Shown piece by piece: positions 17,222 through 54,601 of a stretch of 64,000 bases of DNA. Under the pieces are notes generated by a model that made no database searches, was not told where the DNA came from, and saw nothing but the letters and a program-made list of their open reading frames with translations. The stretch spans positions 1-64,000 of the forward strand of contig CAKZQS010000001.1 of assembly GCA_937141935.1 (NCBI GenBank), given 5' to 3'. The DNA is from an uncultured Ectothiorhodospiraceae bacterium (GTDB lineage Bacteria; Pseudomonadota; Gammaproteobacteria; Nevskiales; Oceanococcaceae). The translations under genes and the position numbers were made by a program. Within the stretch, counting starts at the first letter, position 1, and each line of letters begins with the position of its first letter.

Positions 17222-17844
17222 TCGGCCTCCTCCTCATCCAGGTAGCGGTAGGTCTTCGCGATTGCCGTCATGCGCAGCTTGCCGCTTTGCCGCTTGTGCG
17301 GCTCGATGACAGCTTGGTGAATCGTCACGATGCGTGGCAGGGCCGAAACCCGCGAGACGAAGCCGGCAATGTCGTGGAACTCGCCAACGACTTCGATGCG
17401 GTTGGGCATTTCGGCGTAGAACTCGCGAGGCTGGTCGGCCTGGGGCTGGAACAGCTCCTCTTCCAGGCCAGAGGCCACGCGGGTCTGCGAGATGTCATTG
17501 AGCAGGCTCGCCACCTCGGTCTTGCTCGGCAGCTGGCGCAGCAGGCCGGCGAAGCTCTCACGCATTTCCCGCAGTTGCTCGCGGTAGGCGTCCAGGTTGG
17601 CCACTTTGCGCTGCTTCTTTTCGAAGTCCGTGCGCAGCTGGCGCTCCTGAAATTGCGCCTGAGCGATCTCTTCGCGAATGGGGTTGACCTGGGTGTACAG
17701 GCCTGCCGCCACGATCACGATGAACAGCAGCACGGTGAAAAAACCGTAGATGAAGTCCGACCAGCCGCCAACGTCGGAGGTGTCGAGGCTACGAAGTTCC
17801 TCGAGCTTGGTTCGCCACTGGGGCGTTTGGGCCTCCTCGCTCAT
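17218..17844 (-). CDS. pilO: Type IV pilus inner-membrane protein PilO
   Basis: A 208-residue bitopic protein: a cytoplasmic N-terminus, one membrane helix (about residues 28-46, FIYGFFTVLLFIVIVAAGLY), a periplasmic coiled coil (QAQFQERQLRTDFEKKQRKVANLDAYREQ) and a ferredoxin-like domain. PilO pairs with PilN to form the alignment complex of the pilus machine. Four-base overlaps with pilN and pilP. Confidence 0.96.
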   Translation of the reverse strand: MSEEAQTPQWRTKLEELRSLDTSDVGGWSDFIYGFFTVLLFIVIVAAGLYTQVNPIREEIAQAQFQERQLRTDFEKKQRKVANLDAYREQLREMRESFAGLLRQLPSKTEVASLLNDISQTRVASGLEEELFQPQADQPREFYAEMPNRIEVVGEFHDIAGFVSRVSALPRIVTIHQAVIEPHKRQSGKLRMTAIAKTYRYLDEEEAE

Positions 17845-18434
17845 CCTTCAAACACCTCGTCTTCCGACTTGGATTTCTGCCCGACCCGAACGCGCAGCGA
17901 GAACTCCGACAAGCGGCGGCGCCCCTCTTCGTTCGCACGAATGAAGACCAGACGCGGGTCATGCAGCCACTGTGCCGCTTCAAGGTTGCGGATGTAGGTG
18001 GAAACGCGCCCGTTGGACTCCGCCACGCCGTCGATCCGCGTTTCGGCTCCGCTCTGCTCGATACGCGTCAGATAAACGCCTTCGGGCTTGGTCGTCGCGA
18101 TCTCGTCGAAGAAGTGCACCATCTCCGCGCGGCTCTGCTGCAGTTTCTCGATCACCTGGGTCCGGGAAATCAGGTCCGCGCGCAGATTCTCCAGGTCCTT
18201 GATCTCCTGGATTTTCGCCTCGACCAACTGAATCTCCTGGCGCAAGCGCTCATTGCGTGCCTGTTGCGCTTCCAACTGGGAGTTGAACACGCCGATCACG
18301 ATGAAGCACACGGCGGCTGCGGCCAGCGCCCCGCCCCCCAGCATTGCGAAAAATTGTTTCTGCCGCTGCTCGCGTTTGGCCGCACGCCAGTCGAGCAGGT
18401 TAATCCGGGTCATGGTCATGGCTGCGCCGCTCAT
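17841..18434 (-). CDS. pilN: Type IV pilus inner-membrane protein PilN
   Basis: A 197-residue bitopic protein. Its cytoplasmic N-terminus has the PilM-binding motif INLLDWR (residues 11-17), followed by a membrane helix (about 30-52) and a periplasmic coiled coil plus a ferredoxin-like domain. The ATG at 18434 forms an ATGA overlap with the pilM stop. It binds PilM in the cytoplasm and PilO in the periplasm. Confidence 0.96.
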   Translation of the reverse strand: MSGAAMTMTRINLLDWRAAKREQRQKQFFAMLGGGALAAAAVCFIVIGVFNSQLEAQQARNERLRQEIQLVEAKIQEIKDLENLRADLISRTQVIEKLQQSRAEMVHFFDEIATTKPEGVYLTRIEQSGAETRIDGVAESNGRVSTYIRNLEAAQWLHDPRLVFIRANEEGRRRLSEFSLRVRVGQKSKSEDEVFEG

Positions 18435-29498: not shown

Positions 29499-32400
29499 TT
29501 AACGCCCGCGCCGCCGCCCCCACAACAGCCCCAGCGCCAGCAGCCACAGACCGCCCAGCGCGCCGCCGCGTGTGCCGTCGCCCGCGATGCCGCCGCCATC
29601 GCCACCATCGCCGCCGCCATCACCGCCACCGCCGGGCGGGGTTAGGGGCGCATCGATGCTGGCGTCCTCGGGAAAGTCGTATTCCCAGATGCCCCGACCG
29701 AAGGTGGAGGCGTAGAGCTTGTTGGGGTTGAAGGGCTTGAGCACCACCTGCGTCATTGGCGCATTGGGAATGTCGCCCAGCGGGGCCCAGGTGCTGCCGT
29801 TGAGGTCGCTGGAGATGAAGGCGCCGATGTCGGTGGCGACGATGAGTTGCGTGCCGCGCTTGACGATCGAGCGCGCGTGCACGGCGGGCAGGTTGCCGCT
29901 GATGTTGCGGAAGGACTCGCCGGCATCGGTGGACACGTACACATTGCCTTCGCCCAGTTCGGTGTTGGGGTCGAGGTAGCTGCCCGGCGGAATCCAGGTG
30001 CGGTTGGCATAACCGGCCAGCGTCACGTACACGGTTTCCGGCCGCTCGGGGTCGAGCTCGGTCGAGGTGATGAAGCGGTTCGGCAGGCCGGCTGCGGTGG
30101 CGAAGTGCCAGCCGTCCGGCTCGCCCTTCACCGGCGGCTCGGCCCCACCGACGTTGGTGGCCAGGCCGTTCTGGATGCCGGTATCCCAGTTGTTGATCAA
30201 ATCGCAAGGCCCGCAGAAGGCCACATAGGCCTGGCCGTCGTAGAGGTCGATGTGGGTCATGATGTTGGTCTTGCCGGTGCGCGCGTTGTTGCCCAGGTTG
30301 AACACCTCGCGCCAGTCCAGCGCCGGGCCTTGCGTCACCGCCACCACCTCCGGGCCGGCCGTCATCACGTGGTTGGAATCGGTGGGGTCCATCGTGAACC
30401 AGTTGGCGAAACTGGGGCTGCTGATCGGCGGGTTGGCCGCCGTGTAGGTCAGGCCGCCATTGGTGGTGACCTGCAGTGCGCCCACCTGAATCGTCAGCCA
30501 GGCGTAGTCGCTGTTGCGCGCATCGACGGCGGCAAAAAAGCCATCGCCGCCCAGGTTCTGCACCCGCTCGCGGGTTTGCGCGTCGATGTAGCCGGAGCCG
30601 TTGTCCTGCAGGCCAAACCAGATCCGGCCATCGGCCGCAACGGCCAGGCCATAGGGCAGCAGGGTGCCAAAGCCCTCGTTGTTGCCCACACCCCACTTGC
30701 TGTTGTCCATCTCCTCGCCGGCGGCCACGCACTGGCGGCTGACACCGCCGTCATGGCCGGCAAACAGGCACACGCCGCCATCGCCGGTCGGGATGTAAAT
30801 CGCGTCGTGCTGGTCGGGGTGGGTCGTGGTTTCGGTGGTGACGGGGCTATTGGTCGGGCACACCGGCAGGCCCAGGCTCAGCGCCTGGCAGGAGTCGCCG
30901 GCGAAATAGGTGCCAATCACGTTGTAATCGGCCGCGCCCTGCTGGGCCACGCCATCCTGGCCGACGATGTCGGTGGTGCGCGACTGCCACACCTCCTCCA
31001 GCCCAAAACCCAGGCGGGTGGGCACGCCGGCGGCCGTTGCACGGGTGGGGTCGGGCAGGATCCACATGTTGTACCAGGCCTGCACGCCCGGCGCGGTCAG
31101 CGCGCCGAGCACGATAAAGGTCGAACCGCTGGTGGGGTTGCGCGCGATTTCGTTCTCGTCGGCCAGCCGGGTCCAGCTGTCGCCAAAGTCGGGCGACACA
31201 TACAGCCCGTTCAGCGAGGTGGGGTTGGGCACGCCGGGGTTGGGCACGATGCCATCGGGGATGTCCAGCACCGGCACGCCGCCATTGAAGAGCACGGCAT
31301 CGCCGACGATGGCGTAGACGTAATTGCGGTCCTGCGCTTCGCCGTAGGCCTGGCCCAGCTCGAGCCGGCCAATGCGCTCCTGCGTGGTAAAGCCCTGGTT
31401 GCTGAGCCCGTCACCGGAGACATCGAGCTTGGCGAAGGTGTCCGGCTCGCCGGTGGCCGACTTGTACAGACCGTTGCCCGGCGCATGCACGGTGCCATCG
31501 GGGAACACCGCTTGGCCGGCGCGGTAGCCCACGGCCGCCAGCACTTCGCCACCGGCCTCGTCGGTCACGCCGCCCGGCAGCTTGACCACCACATCGGTCA
31601 CGAAATTGGCGAACTGGCAGGGCCCGAACTCGGTCACGCCCTGGCACTCGGGCGACGTAGGCAGGTTGACGTTGGCGAAGTTCTCGCCGGCGTCGGTGGA
31701 GCGGAACAGGCCTTTGGAGGTGGCGACGTACACGATGTTCGGGCTGCTGGCATCCACGGCGACCTCAAAGCCCAGTGCGCCGTCGGGCACGCCGTTGGAC
31801 TGGTTCCAGGTCACACCCAGGTCCGCGCTCCAGAAGGCGCCCAGGCCGGAATAGGTGTTGCCGCCCATCAGGTGCTCGCCGGAGACGATGACCAGCCGGC
31901 CGCCGCCCGCCGGCGTCCATTCCACGGCGCCGTGCACCAGCGTGGGCAGGTTGTCTCCGATGGGGACCCAGAAATCCCCCAGCTCCTGCACGCTGTCGGC
32001 CTCCGACATCCACAGCCCGCCGGTGCCGATCAGGGCAAAGAGGCGGTTGCCTTCCGGGTCGTAGGCAAAGCTGTCCACACGGCCCATCGCGGTGGGGATG
32101 CCCAGGCCCAGGCCGCCGCGCAGCGGGTCGTCAATCAGTGGGCCGCTGCCGTACTCCTGCCACTGGCCGTTGGCGCCGCTGACCTTTTGCTGCAGCGGGC
32201 GCATCGCCGCCTTGGCTTCGATGGCCTGCCGATAAGCGCCCGGCGGCACCGGGCCCACGCCCTGGGTCAGCGCGTCGTTGGCGGCCAGGATGTCGCCGAC
32301 GGACTCGGGGTGCTTGTTGTTCAGGCAAAAGGCTTCGCCGTACTGCGCTTGCAACTCGGTGATGGATTCGGGGCCGAGGTTGGGGCGGAACTTGCGCGCG

Positions 32401-32549
32401 TAATCGGCGGTGGCAACCAGCCGAAAGCCCTGCGGGCAGGCGTGCGCGCCGGATGATGCGGAGGGCGTGGTGCCCAGGGGCGCCAGCTGCCAGGTGGTGG
32501 CCGCGGCCAGCAGGATCAGCGCGGTGGCGCCCAGGGTTTTCGTATGCAT
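29499..32549 (-). CDS. Large exported BNR/sortilin-like repeat protein with GlyGly-CTERM tail
   Basis: A 1,016-residue protein with a signal peptide (MHTKTLGATALILLAAATTWQLA). Repeated Asp-box units recur: GLFRSTDAGENF (about 270), SPDFGDSWTRL, NVYVSTDAGESFRNIS, and ASTFGRGIWEYDFP near the end, which is the sortilin/VPS10 BNR propeller pattern. The tail is a Gly/Asp-rich stretch, then GGLWLLALGLLWGRRRGR: glycine-rich, hydrophobic, basic, the layout of a GlyGly-CTERM anchor cleaved by rhombosortase. Likely substrate binding or glycan/protein adhesion; not determined. ATG 32549 has GGAGAGAG upstream. Confidence 0.8.
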   Translation of the reverse strand: MHTKTLGATALILLAAATTWQLAPLGTTPSASSGAHACPQGFRLVATADYARKFRPNLGPESITELQAQYGEAFCLNNKHPESVGDILAANDALTQGVGPVPPGAYRQAIEAKAAMRPLQQKVSGANGQWQEYGSGPLIDDPLRGGLGLGIPTAMGRVDSFAYDPEGNRLFALIGTGGLWMSEADSVQELGDFWVPIGDNLPTLVHGAVEWTPAGGGRLVIVSGEHLMGGNTYSGLGAFWSADLGVTWNQSNGVPDGALGFEVAVDASSPNIVYVATSKGLFRSTDAGENFANVNLPTSPECQGVTEFGPCQFANFVTDVVVKLPGGVTDEAGGEVLAAVGYRAGQAVFPDGTVHAPGNGLYKSATGEPDTFAKLDVSGDGLSNQGFTTQERIGRLELGQAYGEAQDRNYVYAIVGDAVLFNGGVPVLDIPDGIVPNPGVPNPTSLNGLYVSPDFGDSWTRLADENEIARNPTSGSTFIVLGALTAPGVQAWYNMWILPDPTRATAAGVPTRLGFGLEEVWQSRTTDIVGQDGVAQQGAADYNVIGTYFAGDSCQALSLGLPVCPTNSPVTTETTTHPDQHDAIYIPTGDGGVCLFAGHDGGVSRQCVAAGEEMDNSKWGVGNNEGFGTLLPYGLAVAADGRIWFGLQDNGSGYIDAQTRERVQNLGGDGFFAAVDARNSDYAWLTIQVGALQVTTNGGLTYTAANPPISSPSFANWFTMDPTDSNHVMTAGPEVVAVTQGPALDWREVFNLGNNARTGKTNIMTHIDLYDGQAYVAFCGPCDLINNWDTGIQNGLATNVGGAEPPVKGEPDGWHFATAAGLPNRFITSTELDPERPETVYVTLAGYANRTWIPPGSYLDPNTELGEGNVYVSTDAGESFRNISGNLPAVHARSIVKRGTQLIVATDIGAFISSDLNGSTWAPLGDIPNAPMTQVVLKPFNPNKLYASTFGRGIWEYDFPEDASIDAPLTPPGGGGDGGGDGGDGGGIAGDGTRGGALGGLWLLALGLLWGRRRGR

Positions 32550-32710
32550 CGCTCTCTCCGTCAAGGCCCGCGCGCCAGGGGGTGCATCGCGTCGGGCTTA
32601 GGCCCGGCTTCATTCAATGCGCAGCGGCCCACAAAGGCAAGCAAAAGCCGCGCCAGCGCGGCGCATGGTCGGCATTGGTCTATGGATATATCGCGCCAGG
32701 CCAGGGCCGC

Positions 32711-32739
32711 CTGTCACGCGCGCGTCATCTGCGCATCAC
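32711..32739 (+). promoter_or_regulatory. Pho-box-like triple direct repeat upstream of phoX
   Basis: Three heptamers spaced by 4 bases: CTGTCAC (32711-32717), GCGTCAT (32722-32728) and GCATCAC (32733-32739). The 7+4+7 spacing matches the PhoB box, in which 7-base CTGTCAT-like half-sites repeat every 11 bases. The first copy is a strong match, the third weak. It lies 74 bases before the phoX start, so PhoB control under phosphate limitation is plausible. Confidence 0.6.
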
Positions 32740-32813
32740 ACAGTGGGGGCGGGGCCCGCGTCGCGGGCCGCGGCGCAGGATTGCGCCCAAGACCCGCCGC
32801 ATTGGAGCCGCCC

Positions 32814-34400
32814 ATGCACCGACGACACTTCATCCAGGCCGGTCTGGCCGTAGCCGGCAGCTTTTCGCTCGGCCGGGATTTTTGGAAACGCGCCTACGCC
32901 GCGCCGGCCCAGCCGGGCCCCAGCATCTACGGCGCGCTGCTCGGCCCGGACGAAAACGGCCTGTACCTGCCGCCGGGCTTTCGCTCGCGGCGCATCGCCG
33001 AGGCCTATTCGCGGGTGCCGCTGGACGGCGGCGGCGAGTCCAGCTACGTCTGGCACCGCGCGCCCGATGGCGGCGGGGTGATCCCGCAGGCCGATGGCGG
33101 CTGGGTTTATGTCAGCAACTCCGAAATTCCGATCATCGCCGACGAATGCACCTCCGATCCGGGCAGTGCCATGTGCGCGGAGCAGGGCGGGGTGGGCGCG
33201 GTGCGTTTCGACGCCCAGGGCCGGGTCGTCGACGCCTACCCGGTGTTGCAGGGCACCAACAACAACTGCGCCGGCGGCGTTACCCCCTGGGGAACCTGGC
33301 TGTCCTGCGAGGAGAACTTTGGCGGCTTCGTCTACGAGTGCGACCCCACCGGCATCAATCCGCCGCTGCGCCTACCCTTCATGGGCCAGTTCAACCACGA
33401 GGCCGCGGCGGTCGACCCCATCGGCAAGGCGATCTACCTGACCGAGGACACCGGCGACGGCGCCTTTTATCGCTTCATCCCCGCATCCTGGCCGGATGGC
33501 GGGCGGCCGGACCTGACGGCCGGCGTGCTCGAAGTGGCCGTGGTCGGCGAGAACCCACCGCTGCGGCGCGTGTATTCCGAACAGATTCGCGAGCTGCTGG
33601 CGCAGGTGCCGGGCATCGACGTGGACGATTTTCCCTGGAACGACATCATGCCGGCGCAGCGCGAAACCGCGCCCGGCCCCGTGCAGTGGCTGCCGGTGCC
33701 CAACCCGCTCGGCCTGCCGCTGGAAACCCGCTACCAGGTGCCCACCGCGGCCGTCTTCGACGGTGGCGAGGGCTGCTGGTACGACTCCGGCCTGGTCTAT
33801 TTCACCTGCAAGGGCACCAACCGGGTCTGGGCCTATGACACCCAGAAGGCCCAGGTCGACATCGTTTACGACGCCGCGCAAACCCCGGAGGCGCCGCTGA
33901 CGGGCGTCGACAACCTCGTCGTGCACCCGGACAGCCATGACCTGTTCGTGGCCGAGGACGGCGGCAACATGGAGCTGGTCATGATCAGCAACGAGCGCGT
34001 GGTGTCGCCCTTCATGCGTTACCCCGTGCCGCACTCCGAGATCGCCGGCCCCGCCTTCGACCCCTCGGGCACGCGCCTGTACCTCGCCAGCCAGGCCAAG
34101 CGCCACCGGCTGGATGACGACGGTCGGGAAGTGCGCGGCGAGATCTTCGAAATCACCGGCCCCTTCCGCGGCACCGCCGCCGCAGCGCCCGGGTCCAACT
34201 TCCCCGGGTCCGACTCCCCCGCGCTGCCGCCGGTCGCAGACCCGCAAGCGCCGCCGGGGCAGCGCCTCGCGGGCGGCAGCCTGTCATTGGGTCTGGCGGC
34301 GGTGGGCGCCGCCTGGGCCGCGCGCCAGTGGCTGGGGCGCGAGTCCGCCCCGAGCATGCCCGCCGAAGCGCCGCGCAGCGCCGAGGACGACAACCACTAA
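32814..34400 (+). CDS. phoX: PhoX-family alkaline phosphatase, Tat-exported
   Basis: A 528-residue PhoX-type (former DUF839) enzyme, a calcium/iron-dependent phosphatase that frees phosphate from organic phosphoesters. A twin-arginine leader (MHRRHFIQAGLAVAGS) fits Tat export. Family blocks: WVYVSNSEIP, NNNCAGGVTPWGTWLSCEENFGG, FNHEAAAVDPIGKAIYLTEDTGDGAFYRF, GVDNLVVHPDSHDLFVAEDGGN, and AGPAFDPSGTRLYLASQ. After about residue 475 comes a Pro/Ala linker and a hydrophobic segment (LSLGLAAVGAAWAARQWLG) that may retain it at the membrane. Divergent from the BNR protein. Preceded by a Pho-box-like site. Confidence 0.9.
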   Translation: MHRRHFIQAGLAVAGSFSLGRDFWKRAYAAPAQPGPSIYGALLGPDENGLYLPPGFRSRRIAEAYSRVPLDGGGESSYVWHRAPDGGGVIPQADGGWVYVSNSEIPIIADECTSDPGSAMCAEQGGVGAVRFDAQGRVVDAYPVLQGTNNNCAGGVTPWGTWLSCEENFGGFVYECDPTGINPPLRLPFMGQFNHEAAAVDPIGKAIYLTEDTGDGAFYRFIPASWPDGGRPDLTAGVLEVAVVGENPPLRRVYSEQIRELLAQVPGIDVDDFPWNDIMPAQRETAPGPVQWLPVPNPLGLPLETRYQVPTAAVFDGGEGCWYDSGLVYFTCKGTNRVWAYDTQKAQVDIVYDAAQTPEAPLTGVDNLVVHPDSHDLFVAEDGGNMELVMISNERVVSPFMRYPVPHSEIAGPAFDPSGTRLYLASQAKRHRLDDDGREVRGEIFEITGPFRGTAAAAPGSNFPGSDSPALPPVADPQAPPGQRLAGGSLSLGLAAVGAAWAARQWLGRESAPSMPAEAPRSAEDDNH

Positions 34401-34425
34401 GCCGCGGCCGCGTAGCCCCCAAGCC

Positions 34426-34455
34426 AAAACGCCGGGGCCCTAGCGGACCCCGGCG
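34426..34455 (-). terminator. Rho-independent terminator of the giant secreted protein gene
   Basis: Minus strand: CGCCGGGG and CCCCGGCG form an 8-bp stem (34430-34455), then TTTT. It lies between the convergent phoX and giant orphan genes; on the plus strand A's precede the stem, so the plus-strand effect would be weak. Confidence 0.75.
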
Positions 34456-34469
34456 CGGGTTGGCTGAGT

Positions 34470-34512
34470 GGCAGCGTCCGGCGCCCGCGTCCGGCGGGCG
34501 ACGGACGCTGCC
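34470..34512. repeat. 11-bp inverted repeat with nested stem
   Basis: GGCAGCGTCCG (34470-34480) and CGGACGCTGCC (34502-34512) are perfectly complementary; the loop contains a second short inverted repeat. It could extend the terminator region or act as a transcript-stabilising hairpin for the giant orphan gene, whose stop is at 34524. Confidence 0.6.
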
Positions 34513-34523
34513 ATGCTTGCGCC

Positions 34524-37500
34524 CTAGTAGCCGCAGATCGGAAAGCGCGACTCGTCTTTGAACTCCGCTTGGGTGATCAGCAGACCGATCTCCTTGGCAA
34601 AGTGAATGCTGCTGCCATTGCAACGGTTGTTGCCGCCCTGCCGGCGAGACCAGCGGTAAGGGTTCTTGCCGAACTTGGAGTAGCCGAGTTGCTCAAAAAA
34701 GGTGTGCGTGTTCTCCGCCGCGAACCCGTCGAGCTCGACCCATATCTTTTGGTTTTTCGGGTCGATCTTGCCGTGCTGCTCCGTTGCCGGAGCGAACGTC
34801 GGTAGGAAATCGCTGCGGGTGGTCACGTGGGTGTAGCCGGTGCCCTCGTGATTGATGCCGAGGTAGGCCTTCACGGCCTGCACGCGACTCAGGCCGAGCT
34901 CCACGGGCGCATGGCGCGCCTGGACATGTTTGCGGCCGAAGTCATCCACACCGTCGCCTTGTTTGGACAGGGTGGCATAGACGGCCAGTGGGGCGCTGAT
35001 GTCCACGCCGACACCGATCTCCGGCGGGCGCGGCGTGAAATTGGGGTCGGGTGAGCAATCCCCGTCCGCGCAGCCTTGGCGCATCGTCGACTTATAGGCT
35101 TGTGCCGAGCCCCATTGCTTGTGAAAGCAGGCCTCGCCATAGCTCTCGCCTGGCGTGCAGAGCCACCCCTCAATGGCGCCGCTGCGGCCGTCGAGCTGTC
35201 GCAGCGCATTGAGATCAAGCCGGCTCACGGGCTGGTCCCAGCGAATCGTTGTCCGCTTATAGGCGTCCACGTACCACTGGTTCAGGGCATCGTAATACGC
35301 GGGGCACCAACTGCCGAAGGTCCAGTTCGTGCAGAGGTCGTCGCGTACGGGCTGGGGTGGCGGGTTGGGAATCAGCATCCACCGGTGGGTTTCAAAGGCA
35401 TCGGCGGGCGATCGCACATGGCCCGATACCGTTTGAAAGCCATCGCCTAGCGCGAACTCGGCAATGTTGCGGAAGCGCCGCAGTTCGGCGGGGTCGTCCG
35501 GGTTTCGCCGCCAGTCCTCGAAACTCTCGAATGCGATGTGCGACGGCAGATCGCGCACCACGAGGTCGATTTCCACCTTGGGGTAATTCTGCGAATAGTC
35601 GTCGTCCTGGATGCGCACATCGAAGTTCATCGCCTGCGCCTGGCCCATATCGACATCCACTAGCGTGGCCGCAACCGGCGAGTCCTCCGCAGTGGCCGCG
35701 ATCGTCAGTTCGCGAAAGCGCGCGGTGCTCAGCGCCATCAACGGCGCGTTGTTCTTGCTGTCCGCGTGGTATGTGAGTAAGCCGAGCCCTTGCGCAAAGA
35801 GCGCGTCATATGTGGCGTGGGCCTGATCCCGCATGGCTTGCGTTGCGAAGCCGCCAATGTTTGTCGCGATTTTTCGTGGCACTGGAGAGAGAAGCTTTGC
35901 GGCGTGCAGTTCGCCAAAAACGGTGATCTGCGGGCTTTCCCACAGTGCGCCGCGCGCACCCTCCTGTAGCGCCTGTTCGGGCGCGATCTGCCGCGGCTGA
36001 TTCTCGAAGGTTAGCTCCAGATCGCCGTTCGCACGCCCCGAGCCGCCCTCGACACGACCGACATGGATCGCGATGGCATCGCTGAATGAGTCCAGCACCT
36101 GCGCTGGGGCCAGGTAGCGCCCGCGCGCGCTGTAGTCGATGGTCTGATTGGCAAAGCTGCTGTGCAGCACGAGATCCATGTCTTCGATATCGCCGCTGAG
36201 CGTTGCGTCGGCATGCAGGGATTGTCCCGCTGCCGAAGCTTGCAGCCGTACCGATTCCGGGAAGCGGCCGACGCTCAGGGAGGTCTGGCGGCCACTGGCA
36301 GGGCCACGCAGTTTCGGGCCGAGGGTTTCCCAGGACGTAACGCCTAGCCCCCGCAACTCGTCCGAAAGCGTCATGGCAAGGCTGGTCTGCGTGCGCACGT
36401 GGGCGCCGTCGCGGCTGTCGCTCACGTTCGTGGCTCGCAGCGCGAGCTCCATGTCGCCAAAAAACAGTTCGTCCACCTCGGCGCGCAGGACTTCGTTGAC
36501 CTCCTGCCCGTTGCGAATCTCCCCGGTGCGCGTCGCAAGGCGAACCATGGCGAAACCTTTGTCGGTCTGCAGCTCTGAGGCTTGCAGCTGGATGAGCGCC
36601 TGGTCTCCTTCCTCGCGGGTATGGTCCTGCGCGTTCTCCGTCAAGCTTTCCGAGCTGTACATTTTGAGATCAAGCTGGCCGGGGATGCCGGTCATTTCGA
36701 TATGCGCGTCGAGCAATGCGTCATTCGTGTGCGCGTGCTCGCATCGGGTGCCCAGTTGGTTAGCGCCGGTTTGCGGAACCATCGCGAAGCCGTAGTTGCG
36801 GTGCATGCGAACGTATATCGCTGCGTGGGTCAGCTCTGTGCCAGCAAATTGGTGGGCGATGCTGGCATCCACGGTGGGTCGCGCAAGGCCTTCGCTGACG
36901 GTTTCGCCGGCGTCGCCAAACACGTCGAGATCCTCGAGCGGGTCGGCGCCCCCCTGGCTCACGCTGCCATTGATATTGGGCTCACGCAGCGTTGCCTCCC
37001 ACTTCAGCGGCGTGTGGTTAAAGCTCAGGCCGACGCTGATCCAAGCATCATCTGCCTCGTTGACACGGATGTGGAACCACAGATGCGGTGAGTGCTCCAT
37101 GCCGCTACCCCCTTGCACCTGCGTGACCGAAAGCTTGGGTGCGATGCCCGTGCCGATGCCGTAGTCCACCGCGACGGCCAGGTCCTCTTGGCCATTGCCG
37201 TCCGTGTCCAGCTTCGTTGGGAGCACTTGCGAGGTGTACAGACTGACGGGCTGGCAGTCGTACACGTAGCCGCGGCCCGCGACGTAGTCGTTGCTGCCAA
37301 CGTAGACCTCGATATCCGCGAGGTTGATGGCGTCGAGAAACTCCCCGAGGACCGTCGAATCGCGCAGGATGGCGGCGACCGGCGCGGTGACATCGCCCGG
37401 GTCCACAGGGTGGTCCGGCAGTACATCCAGGATGCGGTGCAGGAACTCCTCGAGAATCAAGTCGACCGGAAGGGTCGGCGTGGTTGTGGGCGGCTGCACA

Positions 37501-37664
37501 ACATTCAGGGCGTCGAGGGGCGGCGCCTCCAACTCCTCAAACACACCAAGCTGCGGTCCGTCGGGAGGGTCGAACAGCTGTGTGTTTGCGAACGCGGGTG
37601 TACTGCTCGCGAAAACGGCAGCAAGCAGCCCGGCGGTCCAGGGCATCAAAGGTGTTGTGAACAT
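34524..37664 (-). CDS. Giant exported protein of unknown function
   Basis: I do not recognise this 1,046-residue protein. It has a signal peptide (FTTPLMPWTAGLLAAVFASSTPAFA), then a Pro-rich start, a helical EEFLHRILDVLPDHP segment, a calcium-type DTDGNGQEDLAVAVDYGI motif (about 158-175), and a long beta-rich middle. The last 270 residues hold most of the cysteines (LCTNWTFGSWC, WLCTPGESYGEAC, MRQGCADGDC, NNRCNG, FPICGY at the end), suggesting disulfide-stabilised structure outside the cytoplasm. Sampled lines are about 60-62% G+C, below most neighbours, which may hint at transfer. ATG 37664 has GGGGGAG upstream. A LuxR regulator gene is 124 bases upstream. Confidence 0.75.
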   Translation of the reverse strand: MFTTPLMPWTAGLLAAVFASSTPAFANTQLFDPPDGPQLGVFEELEAPPLDALNVVQPPTTTPTLPVDLILEEFLHRILDVLPDHPVDPGDVTAPVAAILRDSTVLGEFLDAINLADIEVYVGSNDYVAGRGYVYDCQPVSLYTSQVLPTKLDTDGNGQEDLAVAVDYGIGTGIAPKLSVTQVQGGSGMEHSPHLWFHIRVNEADDAWISVGLSFNHTPLKWEATLREPNINGSVSQGGADPLEDLDVFGDAGETVSEGLARPTVDASIAHQFAGTELTHAAIYVRMHRNYGFAMVPQTGANQLGTRCEHAHTNDALLDAHIEMTGIPGQLDLKMYSSESLTENAQDHTREEGDQALIQLQASELQTDKGFAMVRLATRTGEIRNGQEVNEVLRAEVDELFFGDMELALRATNVSDSRDGAHVRTQTSLAMTLSDELRGLGVTSWETLGPKLRGPASGRQTSLSVGRFPESVRLQASAAGQSLHADATLSGDIEDMDLVLHSSFANQTIDYSARGRYLAPAQVLDSFSDAIAIHVGRVEGGSGRANGDLELTFENQPRQIAPEQALQEGARGALWESPQITVFGELHAAKLLSPVPRKIATNIGGFATQAMRDQAHATYDALFAQGLGLLTYHADSKNNAPLMALSTARFRELTIAATAEDSPVAATLVDVDMGQAQAMNFDVRIQDDDYSQNYPKVEIDLVVRDLPSHIAFESFEDWRRNPDDPAELRRFRNIAEFALGDGFQTVSGHVRSPADAFETHRWMLIPNPPPQPVRDDLCTNWTFGSWCPAYYDALNQWYVDAYKRTTIRWDQPVSRLDLNALRQLDGRSGAIEGWLCTPGESYGEACFHKQWGSAQAYKSTMRQGCADGDCSPDPNFTPRPPEIGVGVDISAPLAVYATLSKQGDGVDDFGRKHVQARHAPVELGLSRVQAVKAYLGINHEGTGYTHVTTRSDFLPTFAPATEQHGKIDPKNQKIWVELDGFAAENTHTFFEQLGYSKFGKNPYRWSRRQGGNNRCNGSSIHFAKEIGLLITQAEFKDESRFPICGY

Positions 37665-37788
37665 GGTCTCCCCCAAGTATGGATGGAAGGGTCGTCGCGC
37701 CTGGCAGCGCTGGGCCCGTGGCCATCAATCTAGGAGGAGGCAGGCGTTGGCGCAGTCAATAAAATCGACCACAGCCCTCCTCAGGGGG

Positions 37789-38799
37789 CTAAAACTCGTT
37801 TTGCAATAGACGGTTGAGTGCGTCGCGACTGTTGACCTGCAGCTTGCCGTAGGCCCGTTGTACGTAGGTCGCCACGGTCGCCAGGGAAATTTGCAGCTTG
37901 CGCGAAATCTCCTTTTGCGATGCGCCGGTCGAAAACAAATCCGCAACCAATTGCTCTCTTGCCGTGAGCTCGTCGTAGGCGGTGGGTAACCAGGCTTCAA
38001 TCAGGTAAAGATCCGCCAGTGCGCTCACGCGAACGCGATAACCAGTTTGCTGGTTCGACGCGGAATCGCTTGCAGGATCAAAGGGCAGGCGAGGGCCGGT
38101 CCAGCCGGGGTGGGCCTGGGCCATCAGCTCGAGAAATCCTTGTTCCGCCTCGTGCAAGCAGCCGTATTGATCGCAGGTGCTCAGGTAGGAGCGCGTGTGG
38201 CGGACGCTGCGCTTCGAGGCGAAGCTGCGGAAGTAGGCATTGGACGCAGCGCCAATCAGCTGCGGGAAGAGCCGCTCCAGGTCGCGTATGGTCTGGCGGC
38301 TGAAGGGCCTGGGTCGATGGCCTCGCGTGCGGAACAACGACACAAGGCTGGAGAGCCCGCTGGTCTCGTTCTGCGCCGCGATGGTGAGCACCTCTTCGAT
38401 ACCGTAGGGACGATACAGCTGCCGGTAGAGCGCTGATTCCCGAAAAGCCTCCGCGCCGTACAGGGTGCTGACGCATATAGCGCGACCGGGATTGGTGTAC
38501 TGCAGGTCGCTGACCGGATTGACCGGCTGGGTCTCCACCAGGCGCGCGAGGTAATCCTCCGGTAGCCCCTGCAGGGTCGCGGAGTGAATGCGCACGCGGG
38601 CGTAGTCGCCGTAGAGCCAAAGCGCAGCGTCGAAATCGATGTGTGGTGTCAGCAGCTTGAGGGCCCAAGATCGGAAGTCTTCGATCTCGATGTCCGGCCC
38701 GTCGCGGTAGAGCCGTTCGATGCAGCTGTCGATGTGGCGTTCCCGCAGGGGCCGCGGGCGAAGACGATCCCTGTTCGCAGGGTTGACGTGCGTCGGCAT
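37789..38799 (-). CDS. LuxR-family transcriptional regulator
   Basis: A 336-residue regulator with a C-terminal LuxR helix-turn-helix (LTAREQLVADLFSTGASQKEISRKLQISLATVATYVQRAYGKL, about 275-318). The N-terminal 250 residues are a sensor-like region that I cannot match confidently: no receiver domain, and no clear AHL-binding signature. It is not paired with a kinase or synthase. Directly upstream of the giant exported protein on the same strand, it is the obvious candidate regulator, by position only. G+C here is also lower (a line near 37741 is about 57%). ATG 38799. Confidence 0.8.
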   Translation of the reverse strand: MPTHVNPANRDRLRPRPLRERHIDSCIERLYRDGPDIEIEDFRSWALKLLTPHIDFDAALWLYGDYARVRIHSATLQGLPEDYLARLVETQPVNPVSDLQYTNPGRAICVSTLYGAEAFRESALYRQLYRPYGIEEVLTIAAQNETSGLSSLVSLFRTRGHRPRPFSRQTIRDLERLFPQLIGAASNAYFRSFASKRSVRHTRSYLSTCDQYGCLHEAEQGFLELMAQAHPGWTGPRLPFDPASDSASNQQTGYRVRVSALADLYLIEAWLPTAYDELTAREQLVADLFSTGASQKEISRKLQISLATVATYVQRAYGKLQVNSRDALNRLLQNEF

Positions 38800-38827
38800 G
38801 GCGGCGGCCTTGGTATGTGTTCTCCCC

Positions 38828-38843
38828 GCGCGCGGCTGCGCGC
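38828..38843. terminator. Possible hairpin between cytochrome and luxR genes
   Basis: GCGCGC-GGCT-GCGCGC, a 6-bp stem in the 76-base spacer after the cytochrome stop. No T-run follows on the minus strand, so only weak evidence for termination. Confidence 0.3.
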
Positions 38844-38875
38844 AGTCCCAAGCTAACCGACGCGGTCTCTGCGCG

Positions 38876-40801
38876 CTAGCGGCCCACCTGCTCCGGCGAC
38901 ACCGCCGTGGCGGCGTTGCCCCAGGCGGCGCGGGCATAGCTGAGCACGGCGGCGATCTGCTGCGCGCTGAGGCGGTGGGCATAGGCTGGCATCCCGAAGG
39001 GGTAGGGCTGGCCGGTGGTGCTCGGCGGGTAGCCGCCGAAGCGCAGCGTGCGGATGGCATTGCCGGGGTGGGCATCGGTCAGCAGCGCATTGCCGGCCAG
39101 CGGCGGATACACGCCGGCCTCCCCGGCGCCCTGCGCGCCATGACAGTCGGCGCAATGCTGCGCATAGAGCGCCTTGCCCTGCTGGCGCAGCTTGCGCGCC
39201 CGCGCTGCGGGCAGCCGCAGTGCGGGGCGCGCGGTGGCGCTGACGGCCGGCAGGCTGTCGAGGTAATCCACCATGGCCGCCAAGTCGGCGCGCGCAAGGT
39301 GCTGCAGGCTGTCGCTGACAACGGCGGCCATCGGGCCGGTGGCCACGCGACGCGCCGAGCTGCCGTGCTGTAGCAGCGTGATCAGGTCCGCGCGGTCCTG
39401 GGCGTCACGTGGCGCCGACTGCGTCAGGGGTGGGGCGTACCAGCGCTGGTCCGGCAGCATCGCGCCGGCGAAGGCGCGGCTGGCCTGGGCGGCGCCCAGC
39501 GCATTGCGGGGGCCGTGGCAGGCGTTGCAATGGCCCAGCGCCTCCACCAGGTAGCGGCCGCGCTGCCAAGCGGCGCTGCGCTCGGTTTCGGTGGGCAGCG
39601 GCTCGTCATCCAGGTACAGCCAGCGCCAGGCCCGCAGCGCGAGTTGGGTGCCGAAGGGCCAGCGCAGCGTGTGCGCCGGGCGTTGCTGGACCACGGGCGG
39701 CTGCGCTTGCAGCCAGGCCCACATCGCATCGGCATCGGCGCGCCGCAGGTGACGGTAGTGCGGGTAGGGGAAGGCCGGCGACAGCAGGCGCCCGTCGCGG
39801 CTGATGCCGGCGCTCAGGGCCCGCCAGAAGTCGTTGGCGCTCCAGGCGCCCAGGCCGGTCTGCGGGTCGGGGGTCAGGTTGCTGCTGTAGACGCTGCCAA
39901 AGGGGGTCTGGATCGGGCGGCCGCCGGCCAGTGCGGCGCCGCCCTGCGCCGTGTGGCAGCCCAGGCAGTTGCCGGCGCGCACCAGGTAGGCGCCGCGCTC
40001 GGCTGGCGTCGCGTCCGCCGCCGGCACGCTCGCGGCTTGCGTGGGGGGCGCCGCGGGCCGCTCCGGCTGCGCCGCGCCGCAGTCCGCCACGACGCGCTGC
40101 GGGGTGTGCGCGAGCGGCGCGCCGCCGGGGGGCTGGGCGGCAATCCAGCGCGACAGCGCAACGATCTCGTCGGGCCGCAGGGCCTGGGCGACATGGGCCA
40201 TGCAGTCGGGTGCCGCCGCCTGGCGCACGCCGGCGCGCCAGGCGCCGAGCTGGGCGGCGAGGTATTCGGCGCGCAGGCCGCGCAGGCCGGGCACGGCGGG
40301 CTGGGCGCCCTGCAGCGCCGGGCCGTGGCAGTCGGCGCAAGCCGCCAGATTGCGCGCGGGATCCCCCTGCCGCACCAGTCGACGCGCCGCGGCGGTGGCG
40401 GCTTCGTCCAGGTCCTGGGGGGCGCGGCCGCGTGCGCCGGCCTCGGCTGCGGCCCCGGCCCCCGCGGCCGCCGCCGCCCTGACTGGGGGCTGCGCCGCGT
40501 AGTACTGGGCGATGTGCCAGAGGTAGTCCGCGCTCAGTGGGGCCAGCATGTCGGCCATCACGCGGTGCTGGCGGCGGCCGTCGCGAAAGTGGCGCAACTG
40601 GTTGTACAGGTAGCCCGCCGGCTTGCCGGCAATCGAGGGGTAGTAGGACTCGGCCGCCGAGCGCCCGCCCTCGCCATGACAGCCCGCGCAGGCGGCGACG
40701 CGCTCGTCCATGCGCGGCGGCCACTCCGGGCTCGCGCCCACGCCGGCCGACACCAGGGCCAGCAGCAGGGCGTAGAGTCGCGGGGCGTGCGGCAGCGGCA
40801 T
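38876..40801 (-). CDS. Exported pentaheme cytochrome c (fusion of diheme and triheme modules)
   Basis: A 641-residue periplasmic protein with signal peptide (to VGA, about 22) and five CxxCH heme sites: CAGCH 38-42, CADCH 155-159, CLGCH 279-283, CNACH 425-429, CADCH 550-554. The first two fall in c4-type modules (PSIAGKPAGYLYNQLRHFRDG is diagnostic). The last three, with RGAYLVRAGNCLGCHTAQGG, TPFGSVYSSNLTPDPQTGLG and YLVEALGHCNACH, match the triheme cytochrome subunit of membrane alcohol/gluconate dehydrogenases. No dehydrogenase subunit is adjacent. It probably relays electrons from a quinone or periplasmic enzyme to a terminal oxidase. ATG 40801; ATG 40835 possible. Confidence 0.88.
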   Translation of the reverse strand: MPLPHAPRLYALLLALVSAGVGASPEWPPRMDERVAACAGCHGEGGRSAAESYYPSIAGKPAGYLYNQLRHFRDGRRQHRVMADMLAPLSADYLWHIAQYYAAQPPVRAAAAAGAGAAAEAGARGRAPQDLDEAATAAARRLVRQGDPARNLAACADCHGPALQGAQPAVPGLRGLRAEYLAAQLGAWRAGVRQAAAPDCMAHVAQALRPDEIVALSRWIAAQPPGGAPLAHTPQRVVADCGAAQPERPAAPPTQAASVPAADATPAERGAYLVRAGNCLGCHTAQGGAALAGGRPIQTPFGSVYSSNLTPDPQTGLGAWSANDFWRALSAGISRDGRLLSPAFPYPHYRHLRRADADAMWAWLQAQPPVVQQRPAHTLRWPFGTQLALRAWRWLYLDDEPLPTETERSAAWQRGRYLVEALGHCNACHGPRNALGAAQASRAFAGAMLPDQRWYAPPLTQSAPRDAQDRADLITLLQHGSSARRVATGPMAAVVSDSLQHLARADLAAMVDYLDSLPAVSATARPALRLPAARARKLRQQGKALYAQHCADCHGAQGAGEAGVYPPLAGNALLTDAHPGNAIRTLRFGGYPPSTTGQPYPFGMPAYAHRLSAQQIAAVLSYARAAWGNAATAVSPEQVGR

Positions 40802-40944
40802 GGCCAATCTCGGCGCGGCAGGGGCGCCAAGCATGCCGCGACGGCGGCGCGGCTGCCGCCGGCGGGCGGTGGTCCGGCCTAAGCGCTTGAGCGCAGGTGG
40901 CGCGCGGCGCGCTCTGGCTCGGCGCGGGGCGGCGGCCGCGCGGT

Positions 40945-41568
40945 TTAGTCCGCGTCGGGGCGCAGCGTGGCCTGCAGCCTCTCGGCCAGCGGCTTGGCCA
41001 GGTACATATAACTGGACAGGTCGTAGCTCTGGCCGTGGTTGTCGTTCATCTCCTGCCACAGGTGGTCGGTGCGCACCCGCGTGTCGCCCCGGGCCACCAG
41101 CGCGGCGGTGTCCGGCAGGCGGGCCAGGCCGGCGCGCAGCTCCAGCACCGGCAGCAACTTGGTCAGCCGCATCAGCAGCAGGCCGCGGGTGTGCTCCAGG
41201 CTGGGGCCGCATTGCGCCTTGTAGCCGCGGTCGGCGTGGTCGTGCAGCATCAGCGCGACTTCGCAGGCCGTCACTGCGGCGGCCAGGTGGGCGAATTCAG
41301 GAACCGTGCCGACAATCTCGCCGTGCACCATGTGCCGGTTGAGGTCGTCGAACCAGAAGGCGTGCAGGGCCTTGAGCAGCGCGTTGGTGGCCGCGACCGG
41401 GTTGCCCACGGCCACCGGCTTGCGCACCACGAACTCGGTGCTGGTCACGCGCAGGCGCAGGGTGTCCGTCGGATCAAAATCCGCGGACGCAGGGGCGTTC
41501 TCCAGCCGGGTCAGGGTCAGATCCAGCTCGAAAGGGTCGTCCAGCAGTTCTCCGTACAGGCCGGGCAT
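40945..41568 (-). CDS. Hypothetical protein, 207 residues
   Basis: I do not recognise this gene. The product is soluble-looking, without signal peptide or membrane segments. Features: RVTSTEFVVRKPVAVGNP, a His/Asp/Asn-rich stretch (FWFDDLNRHMVHGEIVGT, LMLHDHADRGYKAQCGPSLEHT) and a C-terminus with WQEMNDNHGQSYDLSSYMYLAKPLAERLQA. The first ATG with a ribosome site (GAGGAGG) is 41568. It is divergent from the amidase gene and upstream of the cytochrome on the same strand, 143 bases away. Confidence 0.65.
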   Translation of the reverse strand: MPGLYGELLDDPFELDLTLTRLENAPASADFDPTDTLRLRVTSTEFVVRKPVAVGNPVAATNALLKALHAFWFDDLNRHMVHGEIVGTVPEFAHLAAAVTACEVALMLHDHADRGYKAQCGPSLEHTRGLLLMRLTKLLPVLELRAGLARLPDTAALVARGDTRVRTDHLWQEMNDNHGQSYDLSSYMYLAKPLAERLQATLRPDAD

Positions 41569-41689
41569 GGCGCCTGCCTCCTCAAGCGACGACGGCCGCC
41601 GCAACCACGCGCGGCATCCTGAGGCTTTGCGGCGAATCGCGCAAGTGCCTGATTCCGCCGGGGACAGGGCGGCCGGGCCGCGTACGCGC

Positions 41690-41695
41690 TAGGCT
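41690..41695 (+). promoter_or_regulatory. Candidate -10 element (TAGGCT) for the amidase gene
   Basis: TAGGCT 28 bases before the ATG at 41723, in the 154-base divergent spacer. The same hexamer family recurs before other genes here. Confidence 0.3.
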
Positions 41696-41722
41696 CAGCG
41701 CCAGGACCACCTGGGACTAGGC

Positions 41723-43096
41723 ATGGCGGATTCGCCCGATGCGACCGAATGGCTGCGCCGCTTAAGCGCCGGAGAAATCGACGCGCCCACCCTGGTGCGC
41801 ACGCACCTGGACCAGATCGAGGCCAGCCAGCCGCGGCTGAATGCGGCCACGCAGATCCTGCGCGAGCAGGCGCTGGAGCAGGCGCGCACACCGCGGCCCG
41901 GCCTGCTGTCGGGGCTGCCCATCACGCTGAAGGAAACCTATGCGCTGGCCGGCGAGCAGGTGACCATCGGCTCGGCGCGCATGCCGCCCATCGCCTGCGC
42001 CGAGGACGCGCCGGTGGTGCAAAAGCTGCGCGCGGCCGGCGCCATCGTCGTCGCCCGCAGCAACGTGCCCGAATTCGTGATGAATGCGGAAACGAACAAC
42101 CTGCGCTTTGGCCGCAGCAACAACCCCATCGACCCGCGTCGCACCTGTGGCGGCAGCAGTGGTGGGGAGGGCGCGCTGGTGGGCTCGGGTGCGTCGCCGC
42201 TGGGTTTTGGCACCGACATCCTGGGTTCGATCCGCATCCCGGCGGCCTTCTGCGGCGTGGTGGGCTTTCGGCCGCACAGTGGCGCGATCGACAAGCGCGG
42301 CGTGTGGCCGGTGTCCGGGCCCTATTTCGAAAGCTGGAATGGGCTGGGTCCGCTGGCGCGCAGCGTGCGCGACGCCCGCTTGGCCTACAACGTCATGGCC
42401 GAGCAGCCGCTGCCGGCGCCCGCCACGGTGGCGGGCCTGCGCGTGCTCCAGCCCCGCGGCTTTGGCCTGCGCTACGCCGATGCCTGCATCGAGCGCGCGT
42501 ATGCGGCGGCGGGGCGGGCACTGGCGGCGGCCGGCATGCACCCCGAGCAGCCGCGCTTCGACGACGTGCCCCGGCTCTTTGGCGACATCCCCCGGCTGGT
42601 CACCGGCGAGATGCTGCCGCTGTGGACGCAGTGGCTGAGCCGCCCGGGGGCGCGCTTCTCGCCGCTGGCGGAGGGCCTGCGCCAGCTGCTGCGGCGGCCG
42701 ACGGTCGACCCGGCCTTTTTTCAGTGGTTTGCGCTGGCGCCGGTCATGCGCCCGCGGCGGCGGGGGCGCCTGGCCCAGATCGTCGCGCGTTATGAGGCGG
42801 CGCGGGCGCGCTACCACGCCCTGCTGGGCGCGGATGGCATCTTGCTGCTGCCCACGCTGGGGCTGCTGGCCCCGCGCCATGGGCGTATGAATCGCGCCAC
42901 GCTGCGCCCGGGGCTCAACGGCCTGGTCACCGGCGAGACCTTTGTGAACTACTGCAACCTGTCCGCCATCAGCGTGCCCGCCCACCGCCATGCCGACCCG
43001 GCCACCGGCCTGAAGCCCGGCATCATGCTGGCCTGCGCCCCCGGGGCCGAGGCACGCCTGCTCGACGCGGCGGCGGCGCTGGAGGCGGCGATCTAA
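41723..43096 (+). CDS. Amidase signature-family hydrolase
   Basis: A 457-residue amidase using a Ser-cisSer-Lys triad: Lys70 in GLPITLKETYALAG, the GGSSGG loop (Ser145/146) and nucleophile Ser169 in FGTDILGSIRIPAAFCG. The usual GTDxGGS is GTDILGS here. FAAH-like and bacterial acylamidases share this layout. Substrate unknown; the GatA subunit of tRNA amidotransferase is unlikely because no gatB/gatC are adjacent and the length and C-terminus differ. Convergent with an O-methyltransferase gene. Confidence 0.88.
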   Translation: MADSPDATEWLRRLSAGEIDAPTLVRTHLDQIEASQPRLNAATQILREQALEQARTPRPGLLSGLPITLKETYALAGEQVTIGSARMPPIACAEDAPVVQKLRAAGAIVVARSNVPEFVMNAETNNLRFGRSNNPIDPRRTCGGSSGGEGALVGSGASPLGFGTDILGSIRIPAAFCGVVGFRPHSGAIDKRGVWPVSGPYFESWNGLGPLARSVRDARLAYNVMAEQPLPAPATVAGLRVLQPRGFGLRYADACIERAYAAAGRALAAAGMHPEQPRFDDVPRLFGDIPRLVTGEMLPLWTQWLSRPGARFSPLAEGLRQLLRRPTVDPAFFQWFALAPVMRPRRRGRLAQIVARYEAARARYHALLGADGILLLPTLGLLAPRHGRMNRATLRPGLNGLVTGETFVNYCNLSAISVPAHRHADPATGLKPGIMLACAPGAEARLLDAAAALEAAI

Positions 43097-52852: not shown

Positions 52853-54601
52853 GTGAAGCCAAGCCCCGCCGCCGCCCGTCGGTCGCCAGCCCTGCTGTGC
52901 CTGTTGTCCCTGCTGCTGGCGGGCTGTGGTGGGGGCCGCGCGCCCGACGCGCCGTCGCCGCGGGCCGAGGCACCGGCATCGCCGGCGGCGCCGAGCGGCT
53001 GGCTGGTGGGCACCGGTCAGGCGCTGCACAACCCCGAGGGGCCGGTCTGCGTGGGCGGCGGCGCCACCTTCTGCGGCCGCCGGGTCGACCCGGCCGTGCC
53101 GGGCTCGATCCCCGACCCCCTGCTGGTCAAGGCCACGGCGATCACCGGGCCGAACGAGCAGACCTTCATCCTCGCCAGCACCACCAACATCGGCTATTTC
53201 CTGGCCTACAAGCTGGAGCAGGGCGGGCCCAACGGCATTTTCGACATGCAGCGGCGCATCAGCGCCGAGACCGGCGTGCCGCCGGGCCATGTGGTGGTCG
53301 TCAGCGACCACTCGCACAACGGCCCCGACACCATCGGCCTGTGGGGCGGCGTCGAGCAGAGCTACCTGGAGATCACCGCCAACGCGGTGGTCGATGCGGC
53401 CGTCGAGGCCTGGCGCAGCCGCGAGCCGGCGCAGCTCTTCGTCAGCGCCGTCAATGACAACGCGGCGCGCCTGGCGGACGTGCCTCCGCTGGAGTCTTCC
53501 TATGCCGACCCGCCAGCCTTCGACGAAAGCCGCGGGGGGCCCTCGAACCAGTTCCGCGTGCTCAGCGCGCAGGCCGCCGACGGGCGGCGCATCCTGACCT
53601 GGATGAACTACGCCCCGCATGCGACGGTGTGGAACGGCGCGGCCACCGACAAGCTGACCGGCGACTGGGCCGCCTGGGGGCCGCAGGAGGCCGAGGCGCT
53701 CTACGGCGGCATGGGTCTGGCCGCGCTGGGCAGCCTGGGCGCCACGGACTGGCGCAAGTTCGGCGACGATGCTGCCGCGAAGATGGCCGAGGCGCGGCAA
53801 CGGCTGCGGCGGCTGCTGCAGGCGGCCGAGGATGCGCGCGAGCCGCTGCGCGGCGAGCGCCTGGAGGTGGCCAGCACCTTTATCCGCGAGCCGATCACGC
53901 AGCCCATCCTGCTGGCCAATTACAAGCCGCGCTCTCCAACCAACCAGCCCGGCCTGCCCAGCGAGAACTTCGACGTGCGCATCGACCGCGCCACGCTGCC
54001 GCCCTTTTTGCTGGGCACCGTGTTTGGCACCTACATCAGCGCCATTCGGATCGGCGAGGTCTTCGTGTCGACCTTCCCCGGCGAGCCTTTCGGGGAGCTG
54101 GAATACGTGCTGCGCGGCGAGCAGCGCGTGCAGGGCGCCCAGGCCTACTTCCTGCTCGGCGGCGCCAATGATTTCTTTGGCTACATGGTCCACGAGGACG
54201 AGACCTTCCAGCAGACCTTCGAAGGCGGTGCGTTGTGGCTGGCCGGCTGCCCGGAAAACGCCATCGTCGAGCCGACCGGGCTGGACAAGGAACGCGCCTG
54301 CAAGGACCACTGGGCGCTGATGGTCTCGCCCACCATCGGCCAGCACATCGTCTGCACGCTGCAGAACGCCGCAGACACCCTGGGCTTCGCCACCCAGGGG
54401 CGCGGCGAGCGCTGCACGGCGCTGACGGCGCTCGACGGGCTGCTGACGCCGGACGACCTGCCCATCACCGGCGCGCCCGGCTTCGCGGCGGCGGCCTGGG
54501 AGCAGGCGCGGGCGCTGGCCCTGCAGTGCCCGCTGACGGCGGCGCCGGCGGCCACCTGCGCGGCGCTGAGTGCCGCCATCGCCGACTACGCGCCCCGTTG
54601 A
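52853..54601 (+). CDS. Exported lipoprotein resembling neutral/alkaline ceramidase
   Basis: A 582-residue lipoprotein: signal ARRSPALLCLLSLLLAGC with lipobox LAGC, then an Ala/Pro linker. The core resembles the neutral/alkaline non-lysosomal ceramidase fold: VVVVSDHSHNGPDTIGLWGG (DHSH at about 152-155, a zinc-site-like motif) and YISAIRIGEVFVSTFPGEPFGELEYVLR. Those enzymes hydrolyse N-acyl-sphingosines. Substrate is unproven. The start is GTG 52853, preceded by GAGGAG at 6 bases; no ATG gives a signal peptide. Four or more cysteines near the C-terminus (AGCPENA, RACKDH, IVCTLQ, ERCTAL) may form disulfides. Confidence 0.72.
   Translation: MKPSPAAARRSPALLCLLSLLLAGCGGGRAPDAPSPRAEAPASPAAPSGWLVGTGQALHNPEGPVCVGGGATFCGRRVDPAVPGSIPDPLLVKATAITGPNEQTFILASTTNIGYFLAYKLEQGGPNGIFDMQRRISAETGVPPGHVVVVSDHSHNGPDTIGLWGGVEQSYLEITANAVVDAAVEAWRSREPAQLFVSAVNDNAARLADVPPLESSYADPPAFDESRGGPSNQFRVLSAQAADGRRILTWMNYAPHATVWNGAATDKLTGDWAAWGPQEAEALYGGMGLAALGSLGATDWRKFGDDAAAKMAEARQRLRRLLQAAEDAREPLRGERLEVASTFIREPITQPILLANYKPRSPTNQPGLPSENFDVRIDRATLPPFLLGTVFGTYISAIRIGEVFVSTFPGEPFGELEYVLRGEQRVQGAQAYFLLGGANDFFGYMVHEDETFQQTFEGGALWLAGCPENAIVEPTGLDKERACKDHWALMVSPTIGQHIVCTLQNAADTLGFATQGRGERCTALTALDGLLTPDDLPITGAPGFAAAAWEQARALALQCPLTAAPAATCAALSAAIADYAPR

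Follow-up and report, generated by a model that had tools for sequence, protein, structure and literature searches.

In a 64,000-nucleotide stretch of contig CAKZQS010000001.1 from an uncultured Ectothiorhodospiraceae bacterium (hereafter the window), a gene for a LuxR/GerE-type regulator is followed on the same strand by a gene for a protein of 1,046 residues, here called the giant. Both genes are intact and matched in composition; the giant is followed by a terminator and is without detectable relatives. We read the pair, with a probability of about 0.4, as an accessory unit of two genes, whose LuxR-type protein would control an exported giant.

Composition was compared across the 50 window genes in which 150 or more codons were scored. 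The G+C contents of the regulator and the giant were 0.62 and 0.629, against a mean of 0.697 (standard deviation, SD, 0.036) for the window genes. In G+C content at third codon positions (GC3) the two ranked lowest of the 50, with 0.758 for the regulator and 0.769 for the giant (mean 0.896, SD 0.043), and they were again the lowest two in codon adaptation, with 0.44 and 0.508, respectively (mean 0.714, SD 0.076). By codon usage, each also has the other as its nearest gene among those scored in the window, and the chance that the lowest two of 50 genes adjoin is 0.04. These values support a compositionally matched pair. They also bear out an earlier interpretation of this DNA, made from the letters alone (the sequence-only reading), which had remarked on the lower G+C content of both genes and had named G+C content and codon adaptation as the measures to compare. 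The composition that the two genes share is atypical and fits a joint arrival of regulator and giant.

The giant gene and its product

The giant is an intact gene. By a first-order model of its own sequence, a stop-free frame of 1,046 codons has a probability of about 10^-9.9, and its G+C content by codon position is 0.66/0.45/0.78, with position 3 highest in each block of 100 codons. A Shine-Dalgarno-like GGGGGAG stands immediately 5' of the ATG. With its intact frame and coding-type G+C pattern, the gene for the 1,046-residue protein of the sequence-only reading is real. That the frame is no real gene, or a decayed one, would agree with its want of relatives and of a family; in view of the unbroken frame, the coding-type pattern along the full length, and the Shine-Dalgarno-like start and terminator at its two ends, we consider this very improbable.

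Export of the giant is likely, judging from its N-terminus, which was read by eye and which shows a short hydrophobic stretch followed by a cleavage-like site (TPAFA/N, that is, AFA/N). The hydropathy of this region is modest, with a best 19-residue value of only 1.35, and no other stretch of the protein reaches that value. The protein is acidic, with 139 Asp and Glu versus 81 Lys and Arg residues. A DxDGNGxED motif had been pointed out earlier and does occur, once; Pfam gave no calcium-binding domain in the giant at an expectation value (E) of up to 1. As for the C-terminal part that had been called Cys-rich, it does hold eight of the ten cysteines (residues 778-1044, in the last 270 residues), but the enrichment is mild. 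Beta-type hydropathy periodicity was seen in 15.4% of the 9-residue windows of the mature giant, compared with 8.0% (SD 1.9) in 40 shuffles, and helix-type periodicity showed no excess over 40 shuffles, which suggests that the giant is probably beta-rich. An AlphaFold2 run on the mature giant, as a single sequence without alignment, gave no usable model (mean predicted local distance difference test score, pLDDT, 31.9; predicted template modelling score, pTM, 0.24).

Searches for relatives of the giant

The giant belongs to no recognised family, as had been noted before. The best Pfam match (E 0.22, 11.9 bits) was below the curated cut-off of 27 bits, NCBIfam and PADLOC gave no match, the best PHROGs match had an E of 0.46, and the sequences of the PDB gave no credible match to the giant, whether whole or in parts. 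In the phmmer search of the PDB sequences, Na,K-ATPase (E 0.08 and above) and other chains (E 0.3 and above) came up, and both were set aside as noise.

Genomes were searched in four overlapping sets, each of which includes the giant's own genome. The giant was found in its own genome only among the 85 genomes of the order, the 100 related genomes and the 398 genomes of the phylum sample. In the class sample it was found in 2 of 369 genomes, namely its own and one with a spurious match: this second candidate (G348:C10) had an E of 0.0084 over 80 residues and ran antisense to a long called gene. Scans of about 85,000 species genomes and of viral contigs, which reach close relatives only, found none, nor did tblastn against plasmids and phages at E 0.01. 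When residues 110-331 were compared with plasmids by tblastn at E up to 10, two records appeared (E 5 and 6), the first of which (H1) was rejected since its translation resembles an antisense frame; residues 331-763 had no match to plasmids. Large beta-rich proteins of actinobacteria are of similar appearance; two actinobacterial/archaeal records were searched, and the sole match, which covered 50 residues of one record at E 0.1, was likewise rejected. All searches made support the view that the giant is an orphan.

The regulator and its order-wide family

A GerE domain (PF00196) covers residues 277-328 of the regulator (46.1 bits against a cut-off of 23.5, E 3.9e-12). Residues 1-270 found nothing credible in Pfam or NCBIfam, apart from a single stretch of Stealth_CR3 below the cut-off, so the sensor domain that the sequence-only reading could not place is still without a family. 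No autoinducer-binding model was found in the N-terminus, either in Pfam at E up to 1 or in NCBIfam. We aligned the regulator with 19 relatives of about 330 residues and 28-35% identity (alignment A1), and found conserved residues in both halves. No autoinducer-binding family was among the 25 families listed of the 36 that matched members of this alignment at E up to 0.1, the other 11 having matched few members; GerE matched in 20 of the 20 members, and a profile of the 20 sequences found only helix-turn-helix (HTH) parts among the PDB sequences. Because the 19 relatives align, all carry GerE and the profile finds the HTH only, the sensor-like half is, as far as the alignment tells, conserved as a domain across the order-wide LuxR-type family and is placed by none of Pfam, NCBIfam and the PDB sequences. 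An AlphaFold2 run on the regulator as a single sequence without alignment gave no usable model (pLDDT 47.1, pTM 0.39).

Relatives of the regulator were found in 60 of the 85 genomes of the order at E 1e-20, and in 29 of 41 genomes at E 1e-5, where some of the matches covered the HTH part only. In the class sample the family was present in 7 of 369 genomes, including the regulator's own genome (G000) and that of a species of the same genus (G001). Two matches in viral contigs were both confined to the HTH.

The surroundings of the related genes were read in 32 loci taken from many listed matches; the LuxR gene was called in 30 of these (none in L094 and L096), and neighbours were named by eye from their N-termini unless Pfam was run. 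They include transketolase/gap, rhodanese/tolC-like, dnaX, ClpB-like and other unrelated genes. In L041, the protein downstream of the LuxR gene is by Pfam a tannase-like DUF6351 lipoprotein, and a second large protein of this locus (746 residues) has no named family. In L049 (5126-9199) and L055 (4162-7964), which represent one genus, the next gene behind the LuxR gene, with the same orientation, encodes a lipoprotein of beta-helix and cytochrome-c type, which in L049 matches a beta-helix and an SO2930-type diheme cytochrome in Pfam, with the same Pfam matches in L055. Large exported neighbours that are divergently placed were seen in L038 (peptidase S15-like) and L097 (Kelch). Because the neighbours are diverse, and because BLASTP found no similarity of the giant to the large exported neighbours that were compared (the two L041 proteins and the L097 protein), the regulator family is, judged by these loci, one without a fixed partner.

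The same observations bear on what the giant may be. We see a close to even chance that it belongs to one of the known kinds of large exported protein rich in beta structure, such as adhesins, enzymes or proteins that bind lipids or ligands, but has diverged so far that, for want of an alignment, it looks like an orphan. This would be compatible with either view of the pair. It agrees with the beta-type periodicity above that of shuffles, with the tannase-like and beta-helix/diheme cytochrome proteins that are similarly placed behind related LuxR genes, and with AlphaFold2 models that, having been run without an alignment, are too poor for a fold match; the libraries that gave no credible match to the giant or its parts speak against it, as does its lack of similarity to the three exported neighbours.

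History of the pair

In a tree of the LuxR family with 29 rows, a second copy from the giant's own genome (G000:C11) forms a clade with the copies of G001 and of a further genome, G002, with a support of 100/100. Outside this clade stands the window copy, on a deep branch (length 2.1) whose exact place is unsure. Going by the tree, the LuxR copy that the family inherited is the one in the clade, not the one in the window. G001 is without the giant, and its one copy of the regulator family is the inherited one. The second copy of the giant's own genome (G000:C11:33401-34327, L050:7402-8337) adjoins a dnaX-like gene.

Evaluation of the proposed two-gene unit

If the pair is a unit, then the regulator and, behind it, its target would have entered the lineage together, from an unsampled source. 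Through its divergent N-terminal domain, the LuxR/GerE-type protein would sense a cue, and it would control transcription of the giant. The giant in turn would be exported by the Sec route and act in the periplasm or extracellularly, as a large, acidic protein with disulfide bonds, a probably beta-rich fold and at least one calcium-binding loop.

Several findings weigh against such a unit. Relatives of the regulator are widespread without the giant (60 versus 1 of the 85 genomes of the order). A large exported-looking protein directly downstream and on the same strand was recognised by eye in only 3 of the 30 loci, namely L041, L049 and L055. Within the pair, two hairpins (z -2.24) could separate the genes, no sigma-70 consensus promoter was found in the gap (37665-37788), and a shared operator palindrome was not found. 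The n-region of the putative signal peptide contains no Lys or Arg, and thus no positive charge. In the same window, PilP (GC3 0.778) and PilN (0.796), both confirmed by Pfam with strong scores, approach the pair in this measure. Lastly, an empty site cannot be read, because the genes that surround the pair here lie scattered in the G001 and G002 genomes, and neighbour order is reshuffled even between species of the genus.

These findings bear unevenly on the claims of the sequence-only reading. Its joint arrival of the two genes fits their two lowest GC3 values and their mutual nearest codon usage, but low GC3 alone is no proof of transfer, because PilP and PilN come close. Its description of the LuxR gene as dedicated-looking does not hold as stated, since the far more frequent relatives stand beside unrelated genes; a regulator dedicated to the giant is unproven and weakened. 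As the giant is known in one copy, the pair was seen once, too few for a statistic on joint occurrence in other genomes.

A possible alternative, to which we give less than even odds, is that the giant is native to this lineage, an orphan that changes fast, and that the LuxR gene beside it is an old, diverged paralogue with no relation to it; the composition of both would then have drifted through weak expression, and no joint arrival would be involved. Since the order has this LuxR family natively, the regulator requires no import; since gene order here is reshuffled from one species of the genus to the other, neighbours may meet by chance; and the pilus genes show how low GC3 can be in this window. 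Such an origin sits less well with the two lowest GC3 values belonging to genes that are each other's nearest in codon usage, and a gene of 1,046 codons that is traceless in the 84 other genomes of the order would need very fast divergence or many losses. The two-gene unit also has a bolder form, in which the giant would be the founding member of a new family of large exported proteins, beta-rich and disulfide-bonded. It would travel with a receptor-type LuxR regulator of its own, whose sensor domain is unrecognised, and the two would make up a mobile sense-and-secrete module that stems from an unsampled lineage. This we think unlikely.

Were the pair a real module, it would provide a defined couple of regulator and target for learning what the sensor domain of the order-wide family detects, and it would add a large exported protein without a known fold. 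If it is not a module, the giant is one more exported orphan gene, of which bacterial genomes commonly hold examples. The regulator family is probably a more useful lead than the giant, because many of its members can be aligned and folded.

Locus layout and neighbouring genes

The regulator gene lies 124 nucleotides upstream of the giant (Table 1). The strong hairpin behind the giant is the probable end of the giant transcript. As to signs of a mobile element, the window contains no tRNA, the region 32000-42000 no Rfam family, and no convincing flanking repeats were found around the pair.

Table 1. Features of the regulator-giant locus
Feature	Position	Strand	Description
LuxR/GerE-type regulator	37789..38799	-	336 residues, C-terminal GerE HTH, N-terminal sensor-like domain unplaced
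Regulator-giant gap	37665..37788	-	two small RNA hairpins just 3' of the LuxR stop
Giant, orphan exported protein (putative)	34524..37664	-	1,046 codons, ATG at 37664, TAG ending at 34524
Signal-peptide-like N-terminus of giant	37587..37664	-	residues 1-26, by-eye reading, cleavage-like site TPAFA/N
Calcium-loop-like motif of giant	37182..37208	-	DTDGNGQED, residues 153-161, sole DxDGNGxED instance
Cys-enriched C-terminal part of giant	34524..35333	-	Cys 778, 787, 836, 846, 865, 870, 1015, 1044
Strong hairpin just 3' of giant stop	34469..34513	-	20-nt arms, 95% complementary; -43.8 kcal/mol, z -5.6
Intrinsic-terminator-like stem	34429..34456	-	12 pairs, T-rich tail; between giant and convergent PhoX-family gene

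Positions 38876-40801 (minus strand) encode a multi-haem cytochrome c with five Cytochrom_C stretches, which is about 60% identical in G002 and in another genome (G003) and has short, weak matches only in G001. At 29499-32549 (minus strand) lies a gene for a 1,016-residue sortilin/VPS10- and BNR-repeat-like protein, whose DNA is 78% identical to a stretch of G001 (C5); several weaker matches in G001 are located near the PhoX gene of that genome on C3. Two further genes, at 40945-41568 (minus strand, 207 residues) and 53006-54601 (plus strand, 531 residues), match no Pfam or NCBIfam family. The PilNOP and secretin genes at 14577-18419 (minus strand) are ordinary pilus genes with GC3 values of 0.778-0.848, below most of the window.

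Comparison with known regulators

LuxR solos (PMC4338825) are LuxR-type regulators without a LuxI partner. The regulator resembles them in its C-terminal GerE/LuxR HTH and its N-terminal domain of sensor size, and no partner synthase was noticed adjoining it; it differs in that neither Pfam nor NCBIfam gives an autoinducer-binding model for its N-terminal domain. Within its own order-wide family (A1), the window copy differs from the rest in being a long separate branch and the sole copy found beside the giant. The closest parallels to the window locus are L041, L049 and L055. Their DUF6351 and beta-helix/cytochrome proteins have named families whereas the giant has none, but in gene order these loci are alike: each encodes a large, exported-looking protein directly behind a LuxR gene and in the same direction.

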